In this document: one piece after another, positions 5,827 through 30,407 of the stretch
Layout: the number at the start of each line of letters is the position of its first letter
How positions within the stretch are numbered: the first letter of the stretch is position 1
From: a virus
Virus record (IMG/VR): IMGVR_UViG_3300025151_000090
Coordinates: 1 to 41,851 of that record
Reading direction: 5' to 3' (one strand)
Length of the DNA stretch: 41,851 nt
Made by a program: the position numbers and the translations under genes
The notes under the pieces: model-generated
The model's database searches: none
Seen by the model: only the letters and a program-made list of their open reading frames with translations
What the model was told of the DNA's origin: nothing

Positions 5827-8800
5827 TTAAGATAAGAGTTTAAATGCGTGCTTGATGGACCTTGTTGAAAAGCCCCAGTTTGGGCAATGCGAAAGCCTTG
5901 CCGCATAAGGTCGGTTCAAGTGCACAACATCATTTTCTTTAACAGCCCAGCATTTAATCGAGACCATTTCACTATTGCTGTCCGTCACATCAACAATCCA
6001 ATAAGGCTTTCCTTTCTTGGTTTTTCGTTCTGTGATCTTGCGAGGGATAAACCAACACACAATAAGTTCTGGATCAAACTCTGAGATAGGTGGAACACCT
6101 TGATCTTGTAGATCTTGGATCAGATCAGCATCAACAACAAGAGACATTGGGAATACGCCGGTTAGATCTGTTAGATATTCGATTCTTTCAATGTCTGAGA
6201 AGTCCCCTTCTGGGGCGTATTGCTTAATGTTCTCGGCAAGTTTGTCGTGGGACTTTTGGATCTTCTTGTAGATCTTTGGTCGATCAACACACACCGCAGA
6301 CCAGAAGTGCTTCAAACCTGTGAAGCGTTCATCAACAAGCGAGTTAAGAGCCTGTGCTCGGCAAAGAACATCAAGTGCTTTCTTGTTCAACTTTGAGTAT
6401 GAAATGTTTTCAGAGAAAAGCAAGTCCTCAACTTTGTGGAAAGGCCTGTTGGCCATAATCTCATCAATCGCAGCATCACCAAGGCCCTTGATTGAAGAAA
6501 GGGGTTGGTAAAGAGTTTCACCATCCTCAGAGATTTCCCAGCGGCGACCAGAAGAGTTAATGTTGATTTTCTCTACATTGAACCCTGCTCCTTTTGCTGT
6601 TGCAATCGCCGCCTCCTTCTTCGCATCCGGCTCCGCATCGAGGAACGCAGCCATCCATTCGGATGGAAAGTACTTATAAAGCCAAGCACACTGATAGCTA
6701 ATAATAGAATAACAGACAGCGTGAGACTTATTAAAACCGTAACCAGAGAAGTACTCAAACTTTCTCCAAAGTTCTTTACCTCCTTTGTAGCCTTTTTCAT
6801 AACAACCCTCCAAAAACTTTTGTCTAATGTCTTCTTTTTGTCGCAACTTCTTCTCGGAAAGACCCTTCTTTGTTAGAAGTTTCCTAAGTTTGTTTCCATC
6901 ATCAAGTGTAAGGTCTTTGCCTAGTTCAGCCGCCAACTGAGCGATTTGCTCTTGGAAAATCATAAAGCCGTATGTTGGCTCCAAGATCTCACGAATGATC
7001 GGGTGATCATACTTAATGTATTGAGGGCTGTCCTTTGCTTCAATGTAATCCTTGTCGACGCCAGCCGAAAGAGGCCCTGGGCGGTAAATCGAAGTTACAG
7101 CAGATAAATCAATGATCGACTCTACTTTTGAGTTGGAGCAAAGTTTTTGCGCACCTTCATTCGCAAACTGGAAAATGCCTGCCCACTTGCCTGCTTGGAA
7201 AATGTCCTTATACACTTTTTGATCTTCCAAATCAATCACGTCAGGGTGGAGGTTTTGTTCGTAGAAGTCCCTGATCTGATCGAACGATGGGTTTTCGATT
7301 CCGTGGTGCCTTCTAAGAATGTGGTAGATTGCTCCCTCCATAATGGCAAGCGTGGTCAAGCCAAGAACATCAAACTTAATAAAGCCAAGAGGCTCCAAAT
7401 GTCGAACGTTTTGACCTTCCGACCAGGGCGTTTGAACAACGCCCCCCGAAGCAATAAGAGGCATGTGCTTTTTCAGGTCGTCGCCAACAACAACACCGCC
7501 AGCATGACGAGAAACAGAACGCACTTGACCCAACAGCGCTTCCAAGTGAGCCCCAACTTGGGGATACTGAGCGAGGAAGTTTTGAAGGCTCTCAGAGTAT
7601 CTAAGAGTTTCTTCATAAGTTGGAACATACATACCTGCCGTAATGCCGTGCTCTGCTTTGGCAAGGGGTGTTGCTTCTTTGATCATAACAGAAGTTACTT
7701 TGTTTGCTTCTGTATAAGGAATACCATAGAACTTTGCAACGTCCTTGATAAGAGAGCGCAACTTAAGTGTGTTGTAGTTTGAGATTGGAACAACTGAATC
7801 TTCACCCCACTCCTCAGCCAGCACTTCTTTAAGTTCCATGTTTCTGGAAACATCAAAGTCAATGTCTGGATAGTCGGTTGCATCTTTCGTCATGAAACGA
7901 GAGAAAAGAAGGCCGTGCTTGATTGGATCAACTTGTGTAATCTTCAAGATGTAAGCCAAAAGAGAGCCTGCTGCGGAGCCACGGCCTGGGCCTGATAGCA
8001 TCATTTCATTTGCTTTATCTGCAATGGCTTTCATTGTAAGGAAATACTTTGCGAAGCCTCTATCTTTGATTACTTCGAGTTCTTCACGAAGTCTTTGAAT
8101 GTATTCTTCGTTCTCGGTGAAGCCAAACTCTTTCATTCCTTCAATCGAAAGTTTGACAAGTTGGCTTTCTGCTGTTTCTCCATCGGGAACAACAAAATCA
8201 GGAAGCCGGACAGTTGCGTCAGGCTCAAAGTCTTCGATAAGGCTGTGGGCAATCCAGTGGGTGCGCTCAATGCTTTCTCGGACTAGATCATCATCGTATG
8301 TGCTGTTTGTTTGCTTTGAATAAGAAACATAAGAATCCCACATTTGATCCCCGTTCTTTGGATAAAGTTCATAGCCAACTTCTTCAATGCTCTCGGGAAG
8401 AGATCCATCTTGGTCTTTCTTGTTCATCCAGCCAAGTTTCTTGTAGAGAATGCGGTCCTTCCAAAGTTCAGGGCGAGGATAGTGGGCATCAGCCGCAGAC
8501 ACAAGAGGAACGTCAAGGCGCTTTGAAACCTCAACAACGATTTGATTTAGACGGTGCTGCTCTGGAATGGAGTTCCATTGCAGTTCCAAAAAGAAGCGGT
8601 CTTCAAAAATGTCAAGCATTAGTTTAGTTTGCTTTACTGCTTCTTCAATGATTTCTTCGTCAGTTTGATCAAACATCTCCCACATAATCTTGGCGATAAA
8701 GCCACCAAGGCAAGCGGAAGTTGCAATCACCCCCTCAGAGTGCTCACGCAGCATTTCATAATCCACACGAGGAAAGCGATAATAGTTATCGCCTTGGTGA

Positions 8801-9252
8801 GATTTTGAAACAAGCGAGAAAAGATTGTTTAGGCCGGTTTGATTTTGAGCAAGCAAAACCAAGTGGCGGCGGTGGTTGATTGCAGAGTTCCTGGAACGGG
8901 TTGCGCCCTCGTCCTCAATGGACATTCCTTCGTTCTTTGCAAGTTCTTTTGCTCGCTTCTTGTCTTCTTCAATGCGGGCTTTTTCTTCTTTCCATTCTTT
9001 GATGGACGGGTGGAAATAAGCTTCCACACCATAGACTGCCTTGAAGTTCTTTCCTTCGGACTTCATTTTCTTCCAGTGAAGATACTGATAAGAAAGGCCG
9101 TTCATGTTTCCATGATCGGTTAGTGCAATGGCATCGCACCCATTGCTGTGTGCGAAATCCATATGTTCGTCGGGAAAACCAATAGCGTCGAATGGCGATC
9201 CAACGCAAGAGTGCCCGTGTAGATTTACAAATTTAAGTTTTGGTTGTTCCAT
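5827..9252 (-). CDS. dnaE: DNA polymerase III alpha subunit (family C replicative polymerase)
   Basis: An 1141-residue protein with AAGGAGGAAC before its ATG. The N-terminal PHP domain shows LHGHS (11-15) and LTDHGN (44-49), then YGVEAYF and RRHLVLLAQ; the metal ligands look kept. The polymerase core has GPGRGSAAGSLLAY (421-434), PDIDFD (462-467, catalytic D463 and D465), SRHAGGVVV (581-589) and KFDVLGL with D628 as the third carboxylate. A C-terminal OB-like segment (WIVDVTDSNSEM...IKCWA) follows, and the protein ends early, without a tau-binding tail, as in short bacterial DnaE. No 3'-5' exonuclease motif is seen. It should extend primers for phage DNA synthesis, yet the phage also carries a family A polymerase. 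T4 relatives usually use family B, so this gene is probably acquired. Confidence 0.97.
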   Translation of the reverse strand: MEQPKLKFVNLHGHSCVGSPFDAIGFPDEHMDFAHSNGCDAIALTDHGNMNGLSYQYLHWKKMKSEGKNFKAVYGVEAYFHPSIKEWKEEKARIEEDKKRAKELAKNEGMSIEDEGATRSRNSAINHRRHLVLLAQNQTGLNNLFSLVSKSHQGDNYYRFPRVDYEMLREHSEGVIATSACLGGFIAKIMWEMFDQTDEEIIEEAVKQTKLMLDIFEDRFFLELQWNSIPEQHRLNQIVVEVSKRLDVPLVSAADAHYPRPELWKDRILYKKLGWMNKKDQDGSLPESIEEVGYELYPKNGDQMWDSYVSYSKQTNSTYDDDLVRESIERTHWIAHSLIEDFEPDATVRLPDFVVPDGETAESQLVKLSIEGMKEFGFTENEEYIQRLREELEVIKDRGFAKYFLTMKAIADKANEMMLSGPGRGSAAGSLLAYILKITQVDPIKHGLLFSRFMTKDATDYPDIDFDVSRNMELKEVLAEEWGEDSVVPISNYNTLKLRSLIKDVAKFYGIPYTEANKVTSVMIKEATPLAKAEHGITAGMYVPTYEETLRYSESLQNFLAQYPQVGAHLEALLGQVRSVSRHAGGVVVGDDLKKHMPLIASGGVVQTPWSEGQNVRHLEPLGFIKFDVLGLTTLAIMEGAIYHILRRHHGIENPSFDQIRDFYEQNLHPDVIDLEDQKVYKDIFQAGKWAGIFQFANEGAQKLCSNSKVESIIDLSAVTSIYRPGPLSAGVDKDYIEAKDSPQYIKYDHPIIREILEPTYGFMIFQEQIAQLAAELGKDLTLDDGNKLRKLLTKKGLSEKKLRQKEDIRQKFLEGCYEKGYKGGKELWRKFEYFSGYGFNKSHAVCYSIISYQCAWLYKYFPSEWMAAFLDAEPDAKKEAAIATAKGAGFNVEKININSSGRRWEISEDGETLYQPLSSIKGLGDAAIDEIMANRPFHKVEDLLFSENISYSKLNKKALDVLCRAQALNSLVDERFTGLKHFWSAVCVDRPKIYKKIQKSHDKLAENIKQYAPEGDFSDIERIEYLTDLTGVFPMSLVVDADLIQDLQDQGVPPISEFDPELIVCWFIPRKITERKTKKGKPYWIVDVTDSNSEMVSIKCWAVKENDVVHLNRPYAARLSHCPNWGFSTRSIKHAFKLLS

Positions 9253-21164: not shown

Positions 21165-21577
21165 ATCTTCATTTCTCCTACATGGTTAGAATCCACGGAG
21201 TAAATGACTTTTTTAACCCCAACATGTTTCATTGCTGCTTGACACATACAGCAAGGTTTTGACATTCGCCACTCTCCCTGTGGATTGATTCGCACAACAT
21301 ACATTGTGCTGCCTGCGGCAGATTCTCCACCTGCTGCAAGAAGGCAACTAAGTTCAGCGTGAATAGTGGCGTGTCTTGGCACTTTCTTAAACTTAGCCGC
21401 AAATGAGTGAAACTGATTTTTGTTCACTCCTAAACTCAACACGGAGCCGCCCTTTACCAGAACGGCTCCGTGCCTAAACACCGGGAAGTTGGAGTTAGCC
21501 GCTTGTTTTGCAGCCAACTCCATCATCCCCTTTTCTTTACTCGTCGGGCTCCTCTTCGTCGTAATAATCTTCGGCAT
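21161..21577 (-). CDS. Cytidine/deoxycytidylate deaminase family protein
   Basis: A 138-residue protein from ATG 21577 (AGGACAGGAA upstream), overlapping the end of uvsX by 41 nt; a later ATG at 21526 would avoid the overlap but loses only a non-core tail. The zinc site is plain: HAEL (73-76) with H73 and catalytic E75, and PCCMC (108-112) with C109 and C112. Before it, FRHGAVLVKGG and SLGVNKNQ match the family core. dCMP deamination would give dUMP for ThyX, which makes this the simplest role. Free cytidine or tRNA substrates cannot be excluded. Confidence 0.85.
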   Translation of the reverse strand: MPKIITTKRSPTSKEKGMMELAAKQAANSNFPVFRHGAVLVKGGSVLSLGVNKNQFHSFAAKFKKVPRHATIHAELSCLLAAGGESAAGSTMYVVRINPQGEWRMSKPCCMCQAAMKHVGVKKVIYSVDSNHVGEMKI

Positions 21578-22622
21578 TTCCTGTCCTTTCGTCAAACTTC
21601 TTAACCACAACCTCATCCATCACACTTAATACTTCTTGACGGAATAGTGGGTCTTCTAGTTCTTGAGACCAGTCCGTTGCACGGAACTTTTTCTCTGTGC
21701 CATCTCGGAACGTAAGGGTGTACCACGATCCTGTTTTTACTCTATCTGAGATCTTGATTGCTTCCAGCCAAGACTCTTCATCAAGAATACCGGGCTTGTC
21801 AGTGCCAAACATAATCTTGAACTCACAAGAGCGACCTTCTGTGCCAAAGCGAGACTTTTCAAGTTTGCATTTTAGGGACTTTCCAAGTCGAAAGCCGTTC
21901 TCATCTGTGATAAAGTTCTTTTTAGCCTTTGAGCCGGTAAGCCAAATACGCAGCGAATAAACATAAGCCAGCGCCTTGCCACCTGGCGTGAAGTAGGGCG
22001 TTGTCATTGCCTCTGCAATATTCGAAGTAATGTTGGTCTTCAACTGGTTCAAGATTAGAACAGTTGCTTGCTTGTCTGCCACGGGTAGTGAAAGTTTTTC
22101 AGTGCCCTTGGCTAACACTCGTGGCTTCATAGCCATTGTAGCCTGCGGATTGAAGTCTTTTTCAAGATCTGCTTTTGCAGGGGTCATTGCAAGCGAGTCC
22201 CAGATAAACAAAACACGGTCTTCTGTTTGGCCTAAGATCGTTTCCATTGTTCCAAGAACCATTTCTACAGTAGTTGCCTGAATGTAAAGCAGGTTTTCTA
22301 GATCGCAACCTGCCGCTGTTAGGAAAGCAGGGTCGATTGAAGACTCAGAATCAAAGTAAACAACCTGGATCCCTTTCTTTTGAGCGTTTGCTGCAATCTG
22401 CGCAGCCATATAGGACTTACCGGTTGCTTGCAGGCCGGCAATCTCAGTCCATTTCCCAACAGGGATTCCGGCAACTCGACCCTTACAAATGATAGAGTCG
22501 AGCCACCGGGAACCTGTGGGAATCCAGTCTTTTACTTCTGTTGGATTTTCTTTGGTAAGATCATGGGCGACAACTGCGCCCATTTTCTTATTAAGAAGAT
22601 CTTTTAGATCTTTGATTCCCAT
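21537..22622 (-). CDS. uvsX: UvsX/RecA-like recombinase
   Basis: A 361-residue protein with AAGGAGG before its ATG. It has Walker A GLQATGKS (63-70), then VVYFDSESSIDPAFL (motif with the catalytic Glu), RVLFIWDSLAMTPAK (Walker B, about 135-149) and VLILNQLKTNIT, with Gln-Leu-Lys in the loop region like T4 UvsX. The C-terminus is acidic (YYDEEEPDE), typical of regulatory tails. It should coat ssDNA and drive recombination-dependent replication and repair. It follows the SSB gene by 10 nt, so the two are coexpressed, fitting their known cooperation in T4. Confidence 0.95.
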   Translation of the reverse strand: MGIKDLKDLLNKKMGAVVAHDLTKENPTEVKDWIPTGSRWLDSIICKGRVAGIPVGKWTEIAGLQATGKSYMAAQIAANAQKKGIQVVYFDSESSIDPAFLTAAGCDLENLLYIQATTVEMVLGTMETILGQTEDRVLFIWDSLAMTPAKADLEKDFNPQATMAMKPRVLAKGTEKLSLPVADKQATVLILNQLKTNITSNIAEAMTTPYFTPGGKALAYVYSLRIWLTGSKAKKNFITDENGFRLGKSLKCKLEKSRFGTEGRSCEFKIMFGTDKPGILDEESWLEAIKISDRVKTGSWYTLTFRDGTEKKFRATDWSQELEDPLFRQEVLSVMDEVVVKKFDERTGNAEDYYDEEEPDE

Positions 22623-22632
22623 TCAGGCCTCC

Positions 22633-23370
22633 TTATACGAGGTCCGCAAGGGCGTTAGCAACACGAGATCCGCCGCCTGCACGGACAGTCTCACTTGCCA
22701 ATTCCTCAGCATCTGCACCATCAGACATAAGGAAGTTGTTAAGGATCTCCTCAACCTCCTCCGGGGTCTTGCGGTTTTGCATTGCGTTGATATCGGGAAG
22801 GTTTGCAAGCCAGCCCTCAACTTGATCTTGATCCTTCGAAAGTTTCGAAGCCTTCGGACGGGGACGAACAGTGGTCTCAGGATACATCTTGCCTGAGTTC
22901 TTGTCGTAAGTCACCTTAAGGTCAAAGCCGCTATCGGGATCTGTAATGTCGCCAAAGTCGGGATCAAGAACGGTCTTGAGAAGCTCCTCGTATACCGTCT
23001 TGGAATAGGACCAGACCATTGGGCCATTCTCTTCTTGCCCACGCACAATAACAGGGGAGAAGAAGCGTGCCTTGGCGGAAAGATCCCGGGCCATTTGGCG
23101 GCTGTCATCATCACCCGCATCGTAAAGCTTGCGAACGAAACGATCGAGCGCATCGTCCTCACCAAAGTTGCGCTTGGGGGAAAGGAACGGCGGCGAGTTG
23201 CCCACACGATAGTGAACAAAGAACTGCTTGAACGGATCGCCGTCCGGGGTTGGAAGAATGCGAACCTCATACGTATTCCCAAGTTCCATCTTGAAATAGT
23301 TTGCGCCACCAGAACCCTTGTTGTTTAGTTGGTCCAGTTTTGCTTTCATCTTACTCATATCAATAGCCAT
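22633..23370 (-). CDS. 32: Single-stranded DNA-binding protein, T4 gp32-like
   Basis: A 245-residue protein, first gene after the 23.4 kb promoter with ACAGGAGG before the ATG. The OB-type core begins YFKMELGNTYEVRILPTPDGDPFKQFFVHYRVG (about 25-57), continues FLSPKRNFGEDD, and has ARFFSPVIVRGQEENGPMVWSYSKTVYEEL. This order matches phage gp32 relatives. There is no cysteine anywhere, so the zinc-binding site that stabilises T4 gp32 is absent. The C-terminus lacks the long acidic tail of gp32 but has Glu/Asp-rich helices (PEEVEEILNNF). It should protect ssDNA and help UvsX. Confidence 0.85.
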   Translation of the reverse strand: MAIDMSKMKAKLDQLNNKGSGGANYFKMELGNTYEVRILPTPDGDPFKQFFVHYRVGNSPPFLSPKRNFGEDDALDRFVRKLYDAGDDDSRQMARDLSAKARFFSPVIVRGQEENGPMVWSYSKTVYEELLKTVLDPDFGDITDPDSGFDLKVTYDKNSGKMYPETTVRPRPKASKLSKDQDQVEGWLANLPDINAMQNRKTPEEVEEILNNFLMSDGADAEELASETVRAGGGSRVANALADLV

Positions 23371-23487: not shown

Positions 23488-24342
23488 CTAGTTTTCTAAA
23501 GTCTGTTCTTGGATCATTGTGCTATATTGTACAACATATCCATAGTTGTGCTCCAAGTCGGAGCGATAAATAACAAACGAAGATGCGTTTGAAGGCTCTG
23601 TTGTGTTAATATTGGTGTTAATATCTTTAATCTTCATTAGTCTTGCCGGCTCTCGCAGGGCTTCGTCGTTAAGTATGTAAATATAACTTGTTTCTCTCGG
23701 AAAGTCAAGAGAATAAAACAACTTTCTCTCTCCGTCTTCAACGTTAAACACACCAATGGTTGCAATTCTTGCAGTTTCCACTGGATTGTCGGTTGTGTTT
23801 AGAACCGGCCTTTGTTCTTTGCAGAAGTTGATCATATGAAACGTGGAAGCAAGAAGATCGTTTAGTTGATCGTAGTAGTTTAGAATGTTAATGTCTGGAT
23901 TGATCTTTTCAAGTTCAATATTGTCGATAATGTAAAGTTGTTGAAGCAGTCCAGAGCGAGCAAACTCTTGAAGAACCATTAGAGCAGCCCTTTGTTGCAG
24001 TTTTGCTGTTCCATTGATTGTATTTGGGTCTGATTTAACAAAAATAACTGTTTTTAAGTTTTCTTTTACTTGCTCCATTAAAACAAGGGAAGTCGATGTT
24101 GATTTTGCTGCTCCATTAACAACAAAAAGCAGATCATCGTCCTCAGCAAAGGTTTTTAGTTTTTTTGACCACTTTCTTTTGTCTTTTAGCATTTTTTCTT
24201 CCAGGTCTTCTGCTTTTTTAGCACTTGGAAGTTTAATATCCCCGTTTTCCGATACGGTCAAAAGAGAATAGTTGTAGTATTTTAGGAACTTCTTTGCGAT
24301 CTGGCTTCCGCCGTCGCCAACACCAATAATCTTCTTAATCAT
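23488..24342 (-). CDS. Divergent tubulin/FtsZ-like protein
   Basis: A 284-residue protein. Residues 1-19 read MIKKIIGVGDGGSQIAKKF, like the first strand and G-loop of FtsZ ('ikViGvGGgGgNav'). Residues 69-85, DDLLFVVNGAAKSTSTS, stand where FtsZ has 'DmvFv.aGmGGGTGTG', but the glycines are replaced. Then VLMEQVKENLKTVIFVK matches the helix and strand after it. IIDNIELEK with a following YDQLNDLLASTFHMINF matches 'iPN..Ll....' plus helix H7, and TTDNPVETARIATIGVF may be the T7 loop. A polymer-forming cytoskeletal role (as for PhuZ) is possible, but with so degraded a GTP loop it may not hydrolyse GTP. Alternative: another Rossmann protein. It overlaps the polymerase stop in ATGA. Confidence 0.6.
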   Translation of the reverse strand: MIKKIIGVGDGGSQIAKKFLKYYNYSLLTVSENGDIKLPSAKKAEDLEEKMLKDKRKWSKKLKTFAEDDDLLFVVNGAAKSTSTSLVLMEQVKENLKTVIFVKSDPNTINGTAKLQQRAALMVLQEFARSGLLQQLYIIDNIELEKINPDINILNYYDQLNDLLASTFHMINFCKEQRPVLNTTDNPVETARIATIGVFNVEDGERKLFYSLDFPRETSYIYILNDEALREPARLMKIKDINTNINTTEPSNASSFVIYRSDLEHNYGYVVQYSTMIQEQTLEN

Positions 24343-25523
24343 CGTGGGATCTCCTTTAAGTTTCCAAGTGTTTTGCCTGCTTTAATGCTGGATTTAAAGT
24401 CGCCAAAGCGTGTTTTTGAGAAAGTGGCCACTAAATCGTCAATGAGGCCCAAGTCTTGCTTTGCCATATCCAATACAATACAGTCGTGGATAACAAAAGC
24501 AACAAATGTTTTGTGATTTTGGATTAAATCTTGGATTTTTTTCGTGTTCTCGTAAACAACGTCTGCTGTTGTCGACTGGACCACGTAGTTGATCGCATGA
24601 TCTTCGTCGCACGGGATTGCCCGGCCGAAAGGTGTCTTTACAAAGTCGTGGTGGAACCAGTCTTTCTTGATTTTTTCCTTGTCGTATACCTCTTCAAGGG
24701 TTTTGTTTGCCGCAGTCTTGCCATACAGCCATTGGAATGCTTTTTTCTTTGCGCTCTCACGATCTTGGATGCGTGAAAATACGTGCTGCATGTTCCATTC
24801 GTGGATGTCTTCCTCCGGCTGCTTTCTTCCAGACAAGGCAAGCATTGTTCTTAGTTCTGCTGCATTGAAATCCAACTCAACAAAAAGATCGTTATGTGGC
24901 CGAATAGCAGTTTTGAACTCGGCAGGAATGTTGAGGATCGGGAAAGAGTTCGGCTTTGTGCTCAGTCGCCCCGTTATCGTGCCATAAGGATCGTAGTGCA
25001 CCCACCCGTTTGTGCCTTTCAGGCTTCGCAGTTTGCCCTGTAAGGCCTTTGTCGTGGATAGCTGTGCCGCCACATCAAAATCAAAAATAACTTCGTTATA
25101 GTTCATTTGAGAGACAACCTGGTGAACTTTAACCATGTGGTCATAAGACTTTGGCTTTGTCCAGTTGGCCAAAACGTTGTCGGTGATTTTATTTTTGATT
25201 TCGCAAAGGTCGATAAGAAAAGAAAGTGGCATAAAATCATACACGCACCATTCTTCAATGTTGAAATCAACTGCATCAAAAGCAAGGTTAAAGGCCTTTA
25301 ACTTTTTCTCAATCTCTTCATAGTCGGCCAGAAGGTCGGCGGGGCAGCAATCCTTCAAGGAAGAGCCACCGGCCCAAATCTGGGCGATTTGAAGGTCTTC
25401 TTTGTCTGTTGTTTTGTGGAAAGCCCAAGTCTTGTCGCCTTGGGTCTCGTATTCATCAAAATGAAAAACGCCGTCTTCATAAACGGCGTGGCATTGGTTT
25501 TTTGTGTCTAAAGTTTGGAACAT
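24339..25523 (-). CDS. DNA polymerase family A, minimal form without exonuclease domain
   Basis: A 394-residue protein, about half the size of bacterial Pol I. It contains TGRLSTKPNSFPILNIP (184-200), motif A LDFNAAELR with D218, motif B RESAKKKAFQWLYG (255-268, with R, K and F at the spacing of E. coli R754, K758 and F762), NYVVQSTTADV (312-322) and motif C HDC (346-348). The Asp of motif C is kept but the following Glu is Cys. The first 170 residues do not show 3'-5' or 5'-3' exonuclease motifs. It likely fills gaps or does lagging or repair synthesis beside DnaE. Its ATG overlaps the upstream TAA by one base and has poor Shine-Dalgarno. Confidence 0.9.
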   Translation of the reverse strand: MFQTLDTKNQCHAVYEDGVFHFDEYETQGDKTWAFHKTTDKEDLQIAQIWAGGSSLKDCCPADLLADYEEIEKKLKAFNLAFDAVDFNIEEWCVYDFMPLSFLIDLCEIKNKITDNVLANWTKPKSYDHMVKVHQVVSQMNYNEVIFDFDVAAQLSTTKALQGKLRSLKGTNGWVHYDPYGTITGRLSTKPNSFPILNIPAEFKTAIRPHNDLFVELDFNAAELRTMLALSGRKQPEEDIHEWNMQHVFSRIQDRESAKKKAFQWLYGKTAANKTLEEVYDKEKIKKDWFHHDFVKTPFGRAIPCDEDHAINYVVQSTTADVVYENTKKIQDLIQNHKTFVAFVIHDCIVLDMAKQDLGLIDDLVATFSKTRFGDFKSSIKAGKTLGNLKEIPR

Positions 25524-26698
25524 TAATAAAGTTTCTGGTTAAGGACGTAGCGTCTCACTTGGGACTCAATATACCGGACCTTGGCCGGCGTGTCAAGTGT
25601 TTTGAGCGCCCGATTTAGTGCTTGACGAGAGGCCCTGATATCTGTATTATTGACGACAAGCTTGTTCTTGGACTCGATCAGCCGAAGATAAAAATAAATA
25701 TCACAGAATAAATCAATATCAATTATCTTTGTTAGCTCCCCATAATCTAACTCTGTTCTTGTATTCTTTGTTATTGTCATAAATTCTGGATTATTAACTT
25801 TAAAAGAAACATGTGAAGGATAATAAAAACAAAACTGATTATATAGATAACCAATAAATATTATAAAATCTTCGAAATCTGTGTTTTTTGCTTTTTCAAA
25901 ATAAAAGTTGTTAAACGTTTTAAATGTTATATCTTTTTTTCCAATATATTTTTCAGTTTTCTGAATAACATAAGAATCATTTATATTGCAAATAAATTGA
26001 TTTGGAAGCATATAGTTTGGATAAAAACCATAACGAGAAGCCAAATCAGCAAAACCAGAATAATAAGGGTCGTTTAAAAAGTTGTTGTATTTTTCTTGAT
26101 CATTATTTGCATCTTCAAGATTAAACTCAAAACCCAATCCTGCTTTGATATGATTAAAGTTATTTTTTAATAAATAAGCTTGTTTTGTTATGTAGTTATT
26201 TTGTCTTAAAGATATAAACTTGTTAAACTCTATAATAAAAGAATTTAAGTTTGTTATTCTTGTTTGAATTTCATAATTTCTACAATAAGTATTTAAAAAC
26301 AACTTTGCAACTTTTTGAAGATTTGAACGATATTCAGCTTGAAGATCAAAAGTGTTTTCATTTATGTTGTTTAAATTAATAAAGGTATTTGAAAAACTTA
26401 AGCCCTTTGAAACAAACTTTTTATTAAATGATGTTTTTAATTCTCCAAACAAATCAGATACAAAGTTTAATAAAGTGCCGGCGCTTGTATCTTGAACCAA
26501 GTAATTTTGTCTTGGAAATACAACATCTAAAGAAGGATTAATTTTAAAATTTAAAATATCTCTTTTTCCAGGATTATAATAAGTTAAATAATTTAAAGGA
26601 TTATAAACAGGATAATTTAATTTTTTATCAAATTTATCTTTTAAAGATCTTTCTTCGTTATTTGATATAAAGGTATCTATAAAGTATTTATTGATCAT
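25523..26698 (-). CDS. Hypothetical virion protein, very AT-rich
   Basis: A 391-residue protein (MINKYFIDTFISNNEERSL...) with GAGGG before its ATG, overlapping the 1239-residue gene by 11 nt. It is extremely rich in Asn, Tyr, Phe, Lys and Ile, unlike the replication proteins beside it, and matches the composition of the baseplate genes. No known motif is seen. As the last gene of the tail/baseplate run, a baseplate or wedge component is the most probable role by position. Only its last 35 codons are GC-rich, where the promoter lies. Confidence 0.7.
   Translation of the reverse strand: MINKYFIDTFISNNEERSLKDKFDKKLNYPVYNPLNYLTYYNPGKRDILNFKINPSLDVVFPRQNYLVQDTSAGTLLNFVSDLFGELKTSFNKKFVSKGLSFSNTFINLNNINENTFDLQAEYRSNLQKVAKLFLNTYCRNYEIQTRITNLNSFIIEFNKFISLRQNNYITKQAYLLKNNFNHIKAGLGFEFNLEDANNDQEKYNNFLNDPYYSGFADLASRYGFYPNYMLPNQFICNINDSYVIQKTEKYIGKKDITFKTFNNFYFEKAKNTDFEDFIIFIGYLYNQFCFYYPSHVSFKVNNPEFMTITKNTRTELDYGELTKIIDIDLFCDIYFYLRLIESKNKLVVNNTDIRASRQALNRALKTLDTPAKVRYIESQVRRYVLNQKLY
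25568..25596 (-). promoter_or_regulatory. Sigma70-type promoter inside the end of the upstream gene
   Basis: TTGACA (25591-25596), 17-base spacer, TATATT (25568-25573), on the minus strand, 45 bases before the polymerase ATG and within the coding end of the 391-residue gene. It lacks the 11-base upstream element but is also in a GC-rich patch of an AT-rich gene. It would separate expression of the polymerase and tubulin-like genes from the virion genes. Confidence 0.7.
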
Positions 26699-29600
26699 TT
26701 TGACCCTCTAGTTGGGACTGGGCGTCTTGGAGAGTTCGGTGTGCGTCAAGTATTGCTTGGAGCTCTTGAATTAGAAGCACAACAGCGTCTTCGTCGGAGT
26801 TTTCATTTAAACTTACAAACTCTGATGCATCTATAGAGGTGTCATTTGGAAAACTAAAATTAATTTCATTTGTATTTAAATTTAAACTAAAAGAAATATT
26901 ATCTAAAGCTCCAAACGTAAGAACTGCGTTCATACCGATACGCAAACCTTCTATACTTGTAGGCGGAACACCAGTGCCCCGCTCTCCGAGAGCATAGTCA
27001 TTAAATTGATAAACACCATCGGAAGGAGCTCCGCTAGGCACTCCACCTGCTTCACGAATTGCTTCTTGCAAATCTTGCTGCGCATCGAAGACGTCTGCCC
27101 TTTCTTGAATCTGTATAGTGGCCATTTCAATCGCTTCTTCACTATATAGACTTATTGGCGCTTGTAAAAAGCATAAATCTTCATCACGTTGTCGCCCAAA
27201 GCTTTGCCAGTGAAGTTTGCATTCTGTTGTATAGTTATGATTTGCATCAATTTTATTTACTGTATTTAAAACAACATAATACCCGCCAAAGCCAAGAAAC
27301 TCACTTATATCTCTCGCTTGCCCACCAGCCCCCATAAATATTGGATTTAAATATAAGTATTGACCAGGCATTAAAAACGGTGTTCCAATTAAACTTAAAT
27401 TAACGTTATATAATTCTCTAAGATAATTTAAGTTATCTGCACCTTCTCCAATTGTTCTTGCTGTTCTTAAAGAAGGATCATCAAACTTTTGAAAAGTTAA
27501 GTTTTTTATAATTGAATTTTTTTCACCAAAAGTTAAATGAAATATGCCTCTATCTTTATCTTTTAATCTGTGTTCGGAGTAATCGTAATTATCAAAATCA
27601 ACGCCCTCAGGGACAACCAACTGAACAGGGTTTGCTGTGATATAAATATAGTTATAGGTTTTTAAAGATGAAGGATTTTCTGTGTCGTTGGCTTGAGAAA
27701 AACCTTCAGAAAATTCAAAAAAATCTTTAACATTAATTATTTTTGGTTTAAACTCACTTAGTAAAGTATTGATATCACTACTAACCTCTCTAAATCCAAA
27801 TTCTATTTCGTTAAAACTTCTTGGAAATATAATTGTATTATCATTATCTTTAAAGCCAATGCTAGTATTAGTTGGTCCTATGTTTATATAATCTTCTTGG
27901 GCTTTTTTTCCAAACCTTAATAGCAGCTCTTCTCTTGGTTCTGCATATGTTTTTGAAAATGAATTATAAAATAATCTAGATCTTGAAGATAAAAGGCTTG
28001 TTCCTTGTAAAGCAGCTCTTGCATTTGTTTCATAGCAAAAATATGAATACATTTCTTTTATAAAAGTTTCTAATGTATAACTTGTGGCAAGCCCGGACAT
28101 TATTTTTTCTGTAAAGAATTTTCTAAAAGCATCAATATCAACAAGAATATTTGATAAGTTAATTAATATATTTCTGCCTTCTACATCTTTAAATGAATAA
28201 GGGCCGCTAATAAGATAAGGCAAGTCTTCAATTTCTACATTGTTTTCTATATTTAAATTAGCGTCTGCTAGTGCGCCCATCACCGCTTGAATAATATCTC
28301 CTAGCGTTGTAAAATAAGTTCTCACATATTGACCTGTCTGTTCTGCCCCTTCTGTGTATGGGTTTGCTTCAACACTTGTTGTTGGCGTGTTTAAAAGAGA
28401 CAGTGGTGTTTGGCGTTGAAGTTGAAAAGAAAGATTAACATTTTCTAAGTCTTGATCTGCTATTTCTTGTGCTAATATTTCCTGCTCAGCTTGAAGTGCA
28501 TCTTGCAAAAATAAAACTCCGTCTTTAGTTAAACGCCCAACATTAAATTCTTGATTTTTTATAAACTCTAAAGTAAGTTCGTTTTGAACAATTCTTAAAT
28601 AAGCTTCCCTTTCTTCGCCTTCAATCTCGCCTTCAGTGTTATTGACTATAGCTTCCACATCTTCAACGGTTATTCTGTCTGCAAGGTTTCCAAAATCAAA
28701 TCCTAAAACATATATTCTTGATTGTTCAATTAATGTATTAAAAATTGAAGAATAATTTGCAATAATATTATTTGGATCATTATAATCAACTTCAATTAAG
28801 TTTTGAAAAATCTTGGTATTTGTATTAACTCGGCGGTTGCCGTTATCATCCTCGCTGAGAACTGACTCTGTTTGTTGGCAGGGGGTTGGTTCGTCTTCAC
28901 TATCTTCTTCACCAGCGGCAGCGTCGATTTCTTCGCCTCTTTGCCTTATGTGATTTATTCTATCCAGCAATCTTTGATCGCCAATTGATAAAATATTATA
29001 AAAATCACTATTTTGCAATATTGAATCTAAAAATGAACGATAACTTAAAGATATTCCAATTGAACCATCTTGATTAAAGTTAATATCGTGAGCTTCAAGC
29101 CCAAGATCAAGAGTCTTGACTGCCTCTTCAAAGAAGCCTATATATTCTTGATATCCTAAGTTTGTTAAAGTGTTTTGATCAAAGTTCCAAGCAACATCAA
29201 TTTTTAAACGATAATCATAAGGATCGATAAAAGAGCCAGCTTCTGAGTTTTCTGGATATGACACCAAATCGCCTTGTTCTCCTCTTCTCACCAATCTAAA
29301 TAACTCAAATATATATCCTTGTTGAGTTGAACCATTTCCATCAAATGTAACCCGTTCATTTGAAATATCTGCTTCAGGAGGAAACAGCTTAGATAAATCT
29401 TGAATGTATAATTCTAATTTTGCTTTTATGCTTCTTGAGATCTCGAATGGGTTTTGGCCTTCATAGTCCCAGGAAAAAGATTTAATACCATAACCTCCAC
29501 CACGACCATTGCCAGTAGCAATTTTATTAATATTTTCGCTATCCATTTTATTTGGAAACTCAAACTCAACATCAACTTTTTCACCATCTGATGTGTTATA

Positions 29601-30407
29601 TTGTTTATAAATTCTTATTTTTGGTGTTATGCAAGAAAGAACTACAGATGGTGCACTGAACCAACTTTGATAATCTGGTTTGTTTGTAAATAAAGATAAA
29701 AAAGTTGATGAATCTTCGGCTTCAATTTGATATATATCTTTATAAAATAAATTAACAAGACCACTTTGAAGAATTGATGGGGTCAAGATGCTTAATAAGC
29801 CTTGTTGCCTTTGAACAATTGCTGTAAAGGCCTGCACGTTTTCAAGTGTCCTATCTTCAATGTCTGGAGTTGTGTTTTCATAATAGCGGTCCAGAGCATT
29901 ATTTATACTGCTGCGAGAGTGAAGCTTGGAGCCGGCGTTTGGATCTTGAGAGGTTCGTGTGCCGAGGAAAGACTGGCCCGCTTCGAGCCTGGCTGCTTCA
30001 AGTATTTCAAGAAATAAACTTATTTGATCTTTTTCTTCTTGGGTGACTCTACCTGATTCTCCACGAAAAATTCTTCTGGCTTCTGCAATAAACCTTCGCT
30101 GCAGGCTTCCGTCTCGATCGGAGCCGGCTACAAAGAAGCTTTCAAAAGCCTGCCGTGAAAGGTCCTCATCTACGTCTAGCGTAAAAAGATCTCTTGCAAA
30201 AAGGCCGCCCCGGGCATCACGCCCCACAACATCAGGCCTTTGCTGTCGGCCTCCAGGCAATAAAACTTGCTGATTAAATTGCCTGATATAATCTAAGACG
30301 TTTTCAATACCAAACTGCTCTTGGTCTGAATATTGAGAAATTCTTTGACGGTCAGATTGTGTTGGGCTGCCAATTTGTGGAAACGTTGGAAATCCTGCTT
30401 GTGCCAT
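26688..30407 (-). CDS. Large baseplate protein, hub-like C-terminal region
   Basis: A 1239-residue protein whose ATG overlaps the previous TAA; AGGAG is upstream. Residues 1-100 contain a Gln/Arg-rich start. The middle has phage structural-type segments (RLKIDVAWNFDQNTLTNLG, ISLSYRSFLDSIL). Toward the C-terminus, LNYLRELYNVNLSLIGTPFL with MPGQYLYLNPIFMG, then FGGYYVVLNTVNKID and YTTECKLHW, is the layout of hub proteins that carry a gp27/gpD-like barrel. The final 150 residues are Gln/Glu-rich and coiled. No lysozyme or spike domain is visible. By order it follows tape measure and LysM-like genes, as hub genes do in other myophages. Confidence 0.75.
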   Translation of the reverse strand: MAQAGFPTFPQIGSPTQSDRQRISQYSDQEQFGIENVLDYIRQFNQQVLLPGGRQQRPDVVGRDARGGLFARDLFTLDVDEDLSRQAFESFFVAGSDRDGSLQRRFIAEARRIFRGESGRVTQEEKDQISLFLEILEAARLEAGQSFLGTRTSQDPNAGSKLHSRSSINNALDRYYENTTPDIEDRTLENVQAFTAIVQRQQGLLSILTPSILQSGLVNLFYKDIYQIEAEDSSTFLSLFTNKPDYQSWFSAPSVVLSCITPKIRIYKQYNTSDGEKVDVEFEFPNKMDSENINKIATGNGRGGGYGIKSFSWDYEGQNPFEISRSIKAKLELYIQDLSKLFPPEADISNERVTFDGNGSTQQGYIFELFRLVRRGEQGDLVSYPENSEAGSFIDPYDYRLKIDVAWNFDQNTLTNLGYQEYIGFFEEAVKTLDLGLEAHDINFNQDGSIGISLSYRSFLDSILQNSDFYNILSIGDQRLLDRINHIRQRGEEIDAAAGEEDSEDEPTPCQQTESVLSEDDNGNRRVNTNTKIFQNLIEVDYNDPNNIIANYSSIFNTLIEQSRIYVLGFDFGNLADRITVEDVEAIVNNTEGEIEGEEREAYLRIVQNELTLEFIKNQEFNVGRLTKDGVLFLQDALQAEQEILAQEIADQDLENVNLSFQLQRQTPLSLLNTPTTSVEANPYTEGAEQTGQYVRTYFTTLGDIIQAVMGALADANLNIENNVEIEDLPYLISGPYSFKDVEGRNILINLSNILVDIDAFRKFFTEKIMSGLATSYTLETFIKEMYSYFCYETNARAALQGTSLLSSRSRLFYNSFSKTYAEPREELLLRFGKKAQEDYINIGPTNTSIGFKDNDNTIIFPRSFNEIEFGFREVSSDINTLLSEFKPKIINVKDFFEFSEGFSQANDTENPSSLKTYNYIYITANPVQLVVPEGVDFDNYDYSEHRLKDKDRGIFHLTFGEKNSIIKNLTFQKFDDPSLRTARTIGEGADNLNYLRELYNVNLSLIGTPFLMPGQYLYLNPIFMGAGGQARDISEFLGFGGYYVVLNTVNKIDANHNYTTECKLHWQSFGRQRDEDLCFLQAPISLYSEEAIEMATIQIQERADVFDAQQDLQEAIREAGGVPSGAPSDGVYQFNDYALGERGTGVPPTSIEGLRIGMNAVLTFGALDNISFSLNLNTNEINFSFPNDTSIDASEFVSLNENSDEDAVVLLIQELQAILDAHRTLQDAQSQLEGQNDQ

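Follow-up and report, generated by a model that had tools for sequence, protein, structure and literature searches.

A new family of predicted tubulin/FtsZ-fold proteins, encoded between DNA polymerase and single-stranded DNA-binding protein genes in uncultured viruses

The well-studied families of tubulin and FtsZ form filaments, and FtsZ is a known target of phages. Tubulins encoded by phages themselves have been described as PhuZ, which is tied to the nucleus-forming jumbo phages (PMC10299810, PMC13282480), and as TubZ of phage c-st (PMC3678025). In known protofilaments the base of helix H8 lies at the subunit interface (PMC3678025), whilst the catalytic Asp of loop T7 in PhuZ is D190 in phage 201phi2-1, and PhuZ in which this residue is mutated still polymerises, giving non-dynamic filaments (PMC4244570). 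More diverged families, FtsZl1 and FtsZl2, are cellular and are recognised by a GGGTG(S/T)G loop, with FtsZl1 possessing extra coiled-coil domains and no recognisable T6–H7 (Makarova & Koonin 2010, PMC2875224). The gene described herein represents a new family of this known superfamily and, by the membership features tested, is not PhuZ, TubZ or FtsZ.

This gene is found in the window, by which is meant the whole 41.8 kb stretch of viral DNA that was analysed (41,851 nt), and its product is referred to as the window protein. The ORF of 284 codons runs from an ATG at 24342 to a stop ending at 23488, and contains IGVGDGGSQIAKKF (residues 6–19), FVVNGAAKSTSTS (73–85) and IIDN (138–141); the coordinates agree with those of the initial annotation, and the motifs quoted there are present. 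Comparison with four relatives of 77–94 % DNA identity gives a dN/dS of 0.07–0.09, from which it follows that the ORF is a real, constrained protein. Codon-position differences are mostly at the third position (e.g. 12/3/33), and strong purifying selection acts on the ORF. The features of the locus are collected in Table 1.

Table 1. Positions of the tubulin-like gene, its neighbours and its principal sequence elements in the window
Feature	Coordinates	Strand	Evidence or remarks
PolIII-alpha polymerase, bacterial type	5827–9252	minus	PHP, DNA_pol3_alpha and finger domains
UvsX-like recombinase	21537–22622	minus	phrog_97, E=5e-56; next gene downstream of SSB
gp32-like single-stranded DNA-binding protein (SSB)	22633–23370	minus	phrog_1192, E=4.7e-22; downstream neighbour
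Predicted tubulin/FtsZ-fold protein, 284 aa	23488–24342	minus	ORF; AlphaFold2 pLDDT 94.7, pTM 0.92; Foldseek/VIA-align; profile match to TubZ
T7 position, residues 182–192 (NTTDNPVETAR), no helix H8	23767–23799	minus	E189 acidic in 62 %, position 186 acidic in 32 % of members
Central helix H7, residues 153–174, with Y157 and N161	23821–23886	minus	DSSP of model; aligned to FtsZ and TubZ H7
Strand end and putative base-recognition Asn, residues 137–141 (YIIDN; N141)	23920–23934	minus	N141 in 95 %; aligns with EcFtsZ N165 and IDN of TubZ
Family signature LQEFARSG, residues 124–131, end of helix 111–129	23950–23973	minus	Q125, R129 and S130 invariant in 96 members
T4 (tubulin signature) position, residues 77–86 (GAAKSTSTSL)	24085–24114	minus	Family consensus GSGxISGxSL; degraded in clade of window protein
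T1-like loop, residues 7–16 (GVGDGGSQIA)	24295–24324	minus	G7 99 %, G9 100 %, G12 93 % in 96 members; aligned to FtsZ T1
Family-A DNA polymerase, 394 aa	24339–25523	minus	PF00476, E=4.9e-13; upstream neighbour

Because the close relatives of the tubulin-like gene all adjoin an SSB gene, an alignment of the latter was scanned over viral contigs, and the ORFs adjoining its matches were then searched for tubulin-like relatives. A profile of the close relatives reaches many distant members (with E-values from 1e-57 to 1e-32 for the first 28 of the matches listed), and iteration of the profile search among SSB-adjoining ORFs yielded 73 matches in total. When IMG/VR was scanned with diverse members, at least 597 stretches were confirmed to encode a relative (597 of the 600 among the matches listed); the loci collected for analysis contain 105 distinct full-length members, and the alignment used below (A6) is composed of 96 members, each of 262–292 residues. 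To members outside its own clade the window protein is 22–37 % identical. A single copy of the gene is present in each of 12 contigs tested (12/12), the longest being 193,778 bases, and seven long contigs gave no further match to PF00091, a result of little weight given that this profile also misses the known family member there.

With regard to distribution, 84,980 cellular genomes were scanned twice without any relative coming to light, tblastn with the window protein matched no phage record, and tblastn with four diverse members matched none of 50,697 phage records. On this evidence the family occurs in uncultured viruses alone, in so far as scans based on patterns can establish this. A search of PHROGs with the family likewise gave nothing convincing, and that the family was previously missed is explained by its lack of a PHROG match and by Pfam scores that stay below the curated cut-off; no earlier report of it was found in the open literature, most subscription papers being outside the scope of this search.

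The initial annotation had proposed a divergent tubulin/FtsZ-like protein and put forward a search with the Pfam tubulin profile (PF00091), the outcome of which is mixed. Over the 41.8 kb record this profile matches only two pieces, which are colinear and both lie inside the tubulin-like ORF, but the window protein scores just 18 bits (E=0.0038) against a cut-off of 33; some of its relatives also score sub-threshold. A profile of close relatives compared with PDB sequences produced nothing convincing, whereas the A6 profile, compared with all PDB sequences, has TubZ as its best match (E=6.3e-4, profile positions 6–204), the next match being at E=0.61. Alignment of profiles by hhalign relates the family to FtsZ from S1 to H7 (E=1.2e-4) and to PhuZ over the first 100 columns, i.e. 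S1–T4 (E=1e-6), compared with E-values of 0.01 or worse for controls (polymerase, SSB and a reversed profile). When family members were ranked against 976 decoy ORFs, they occupied 48 of the top 50 places with an FtsZ profile (AUC 0.986), in which the window protein scored highest of all members, and 45 of the top 50 with a PhuZ profile (AUC 0.957); reversed-profile and neighbour-gene controls in this test were null. The reverse direction is weaker, with the A6 profile separating single FtsZ/PhuZ sequences from decoys at an AUC of 0.87. Judged from these sequence comparisons, the similarity of the window protein to tubulin/FtsZ exceeds chance. The FtsZ sequences used for the profile tests came from plasmid records; on a Marinomonas plasmid (L222:311-1273), an FtsZ-like gene of 320 aa that bears a hypothetical annotation adjoins a PcfJ-domain gene.

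A first AlphaFold2 run with 12 close relatives only was too poor to use (pLDDT 44), which was overcome by virtue of the distant relatives recovered via the SSB neighbour: with alignment A6 the model reaches a pLDDT of 94.7 and a pTM of 0.92. The predicted fold is that of a two-domain tubulin/FtsZ protein with a central helix H7. The N-terminal part comprises S1 (4–8), H1 (9–21), S2 (26–31), helices 44–53 and 55–66, strand 71–76 and helix 80–91, followed by strand 97–103, helix 111–129, strand 135–140 and H7 (153–174), and by a C-terminal domain of strands 193–199, 215–224, 253–260 and 267–274 with helix 232–248. Helices H8 and H9 are missing from the model (by comparison with the anatomy of FtsZ), and the chain continues only about 10 residues beyond the last strand. 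Foldseek against the PDB gives 670 matches at E≤0.001, the best 50 of which are FtsZ and TubZ, with FtsZ as the best match (E=5.0e-14, TMq 0.70). By VIA-align, the model matches CetZ at Z 24.9 (259 residues, rmsd 2.9 Å), TubZ at Z 23.1 (278 residues), FtsZ at 22.8 and tubulin at about 22, with the match spanning both domains (model residues 1–282). The top viral structure in BFVD is A0A6J5RW92, an ‘FtsZ Cell division GTPase’ of an uncultured Caudovirales phage (E=4.5e-15, TMq 0.79), followed by two proteins of uncultured myoviruses, one named ‘Cell division protein’ and the other ‘Tubulin’; A0A6J5RW92 is the closest predicted viral structure, but at 452 aa is far from equivalent in size and shares only 15 % identity with the window protein. 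The tubulin/FtsZ fold that had been suggested from the letters alone is thus recovered over the whole chain, and neither of the outcomes named beforehand as refuting it (a non-tubulin fold, or a confident HMM match to an unrelated family) appeared. Placement of the fold and family within the tubulin/FtsZ superfamily, as a new family, is regarded as close to certain, the fold itself resting on prediction and sequence profiles.

The model and alignments also bear out the element order originally read from the sequence, i.e. S1 and G-loop, signature strand and loop, Asn, and H7. The GxGxxG of T1 is kept in 93–100 % of the 96 members. Conservation is likewise high in what appears to be the base pocket, where N161 is invariant (100 %) and Y157 is Tyr in 76 % of members, with Phe and Trp also occurring; in Escherichia coli FtsZ, Y157 aligns with F182 and N161 with N186. 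The tubulin residues matching N141, Y157 and N161 contact guanine. At T4, the strict signature GGGTG[ST]G is met neither by the window protein (GAAKSTSTS) nor by the family consensus, and for this reason the proteins are filed as a diverged homologous family rather than as strict tubulin, FtsZ, TubZ or PhuZ. The degradation of GGGTGTG that had been remarked upon is genuine in the window protein but is mainly a property of its own clade, as 63 of the 96 members retain Gly at all of positions 77, 79 and 83. A T7-like segment had also been claimed, and a T7 position does follow H7, but it lacks helix H8, and its acidic residues differ from member to member: alignment with TubZ places residues 186 and 189 at the T7 acids, both of which are acidic in 19/96 members and at least one in 72/96, such that the putative catalytic acid, for which the window protein has E189, is not conserved family-wide. 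More conserved than the phosphate-binding loops is the signature LQE[YF]ARSG, which has no assignable counterpart in FtsZ or tubulin.

Set beside the described systems, the closest resemblance in sequence is to TubZ/RepX, the partition proteins of plasmids and of phage c-st, which give the best PDB sequence-profile match, share the fold, and include GLGxxGCxIA, IDN and the H7 Asn within the profile match; both are carried by mobile DNA elements. The window protein, however, is some 100 residues shorter, has no C-terminal helix or tail, lacks GGGTGTG at T4 as well as H8/H9, and is encoded in a replication operon amongst a polymerase, a MazG-like ORF in many relatives, SSB and UvsX. PhuZ is similarly a phage-encoded tubulin fold, yet neither family detects the other by tblastn (a PhuZ query finds 141 phage records, the four members of this family none), the C-terminal helix and acidic tail that follow the last strand in PhuZ are missing from the model, and the catalytic T7 Asp is not conserved. 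Identity with PhuZ was accordingly dropped, there being only remote profile similarity. Contigs of this family, which are possibly incomplete, reach 194 kb, under the jumbo limit of 200 kb, and a search of seven long contigs for the chimallin of 201phi2-1 gave no match, which, in the absence of a positive control, carries no weight in either direction. FtsZ and CetZ share the fold together with the aligned T1, Asn and H7 aromatic/Asn positions, but identity is 10–15 %, T4, T7/H8 and H9 are altered, and the present family is viral and under the Pfam cut-off. FtsZl1 and FtsZl2 offer a parallel as diverged FtsZ–tubulin families found by remote similarity and genome context; unlike these, the family considered here is viral and has an altered T4, and its H7 is clear, in contrast to FtsZl1.

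The carrying phage encodes a tail sheath, tail tube, UvsX, gp32-like SSB, DnaB-type helicase and ribonucleotide reductase, as well as two polymerases within the 41.8 kb record, namely PolIII-alpha and a small family-A enzyme. No family-B polymerase was found among the proteins scanned, the fragment being an incomplete genome. Its description as T4-related is supported by the contractile sheath, UvsX and gp32-like SSB, but not by the PolIII-alpha, the separate family-A polymerase or the DnaB-type helicase, and is fair only loosely, in the sense that the phage has a contractile tail and that some of its replication genes are of T4 type. Three large proteins of 391, 1239 and 735 aa encoded nearby (25523–26698, 26688–30407 and 31587–33794, minus strand) have no confident family match, and L012, L008 and other relatives have counterparts of the first two with the order preserved; all three are possibly structural.

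The first 4 bases of the tubulin-like gene, start codon included (24339–24342), are also the last 4 of the polymerase ORF, and in terms of gene layout the coupling to a DNA polymerase proposed in the initial annotation is correct; the SSB gene begins 117 bases beyond the tubulin-like gene. This gene order is common to relatives in more than 100 contigs. Across the 105 members, SSB lies downstream of every one with enough sequence, and the polymerase upstream of those with room, with one exception (L066). Many relatives (L044, L051, L131, L133, L134 and others) harbour a small ORF inserted between polymerase and tubulin-like gene, presumably MazG-like, a name that rests on the motif KLVRDRIPEII (xxYxKLVRDRIPEII...) alone. 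In 15 related SSB loci (among L073–L122), other genes occupy the polymerase–SSB slot, and a tubulin-like gene was sought in that slot of these loci without success. The slot therefore looks like a variable cargo slot, and the tubulin-like gene occupies an accessory position inside a conserved replication block, meaning that gene order alone is no proof of a role in replication. Recurrent among the unnamed genes of the 15 loci is one whose product, some 200 aa long, carries a GER-x-x-x-x-P motif. Retention of the gene in cultured relatives was considered and rejected: Flavobacterium phage immuto and Microcystis phage Mel-JY01 share the SSB–RecA block, but their slot genes differ.

As a whole, these observations are best explained, with a probability of roughly 0.45, by a guanine-binding tubulin-fold scaffold for replication with weak or no hydrolysis, in which binding, hydrolysis, self-association and partner contacts are all inferred, without assay. 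Guanine nucleotide would most likely be bound via the T1 loop and a base pocket of N141, Y157 and N161, as inferred from conserved positions. Since H8 and a conserved T7 acid are lost, polymer-stimulated hydrolysis is inferred to be probably weak or absent, and any polymer stable rather than dynamic. Self-association would then most likely produce a filament or oligomer that gathers or positions phage DNA during its replication, together with the operon's polymerase and SSB; this role is inferred chiefly from the order of the genes and the behaviour of TubZ and PhuZ. Counting against such a scaffold, the window protein lacks at T4 the glycines expected to hold phosphates, and any polymer would be unusual given the absence from the model of H8, the base of which lies at the interface in known protofilaments. 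Lost catalysis does not in itself exclude a polymer, as the mutated PhuZ still assembles. It is nevertheless conceivable, if unlikely, that no polymers are formed at all, and that this is a pseudo-tubulin, a monomeric or dimeric sensor of guanine nucleotide (or of another ligand) regulating the adjacent polymerase or SSB. The degraded T4 of the clade, the unconserved T7 acid and the missing H8 would all agree with this, as would the 4-base overlap with the polymerase gene, and the conservation of QE[YF]ARS above that of the phosphate loops suggests a non-catalytic functional surface; such a sensor is, however, harder to reconcile with the Gly-rich T1 and GSGxxSG T4 loop kept in most members of the wider family, and with the filament formation of the well-studied tubulin/FtsZ families.

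Other readings fare less well. A dynamic, cytomotive filament in the manner of PhuZ or TubZ, moving or centring phage DNA through GTP hydrolysis, could draw upon the shared fold, the TubZ sequence match and the members that keep at least one T7-like acid, but is rendered improbable by the absent H8, the small number of members with both acids, and the lack of a TubZ/PhuZ-style C-terminal helix or tail. It is also rather improbable that the protein poisons host division as an FtsZ mimic, binding host FtsZ and blocking the Z-ring: phages do target FtsZ, the window protein tops its family with the FtsZ profile, and a mimic without the lower interface could, by inference, cap host filaments, yet a fixed position between polymerase and SSB is unlike that expected of an early host-takeover gene, and an identity to FtsZ of only about 10–15 % over the fold makes co-assembly doubtful. 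A plain Rossmann-fold enzyme with a merely superficial resemblance to tubulin finds its sole encouragement in sub-threshold Pfam matches to NAD-binding families in a few members; it is already contradicted, and hardly tenable, as both domains are matched at Z 22–25, all of the matches listed being tubulin, FtsZ, CetZ or TubZ, and H7 and the base-recognition residues align.

The replication scaffold favoured above would, if extended to the family, amount to a widespread new class of phage tubulin-fold protein outside the nucleus-forming jumbo phages, non-dynamic or nucleotide-sensing and organising polymerase, SSB and DNA, which is put forward here as a tentative possibility. What the family presents is a large set of proteins from phages with contigs below 200 kb, fixed between DNA polymerase and SSB. 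It would open the question of spatial organisation to testing in phages that have no nucleus, and provides a natural experiment in how the tubulin fold works after T4, T7 and H8 have changed.
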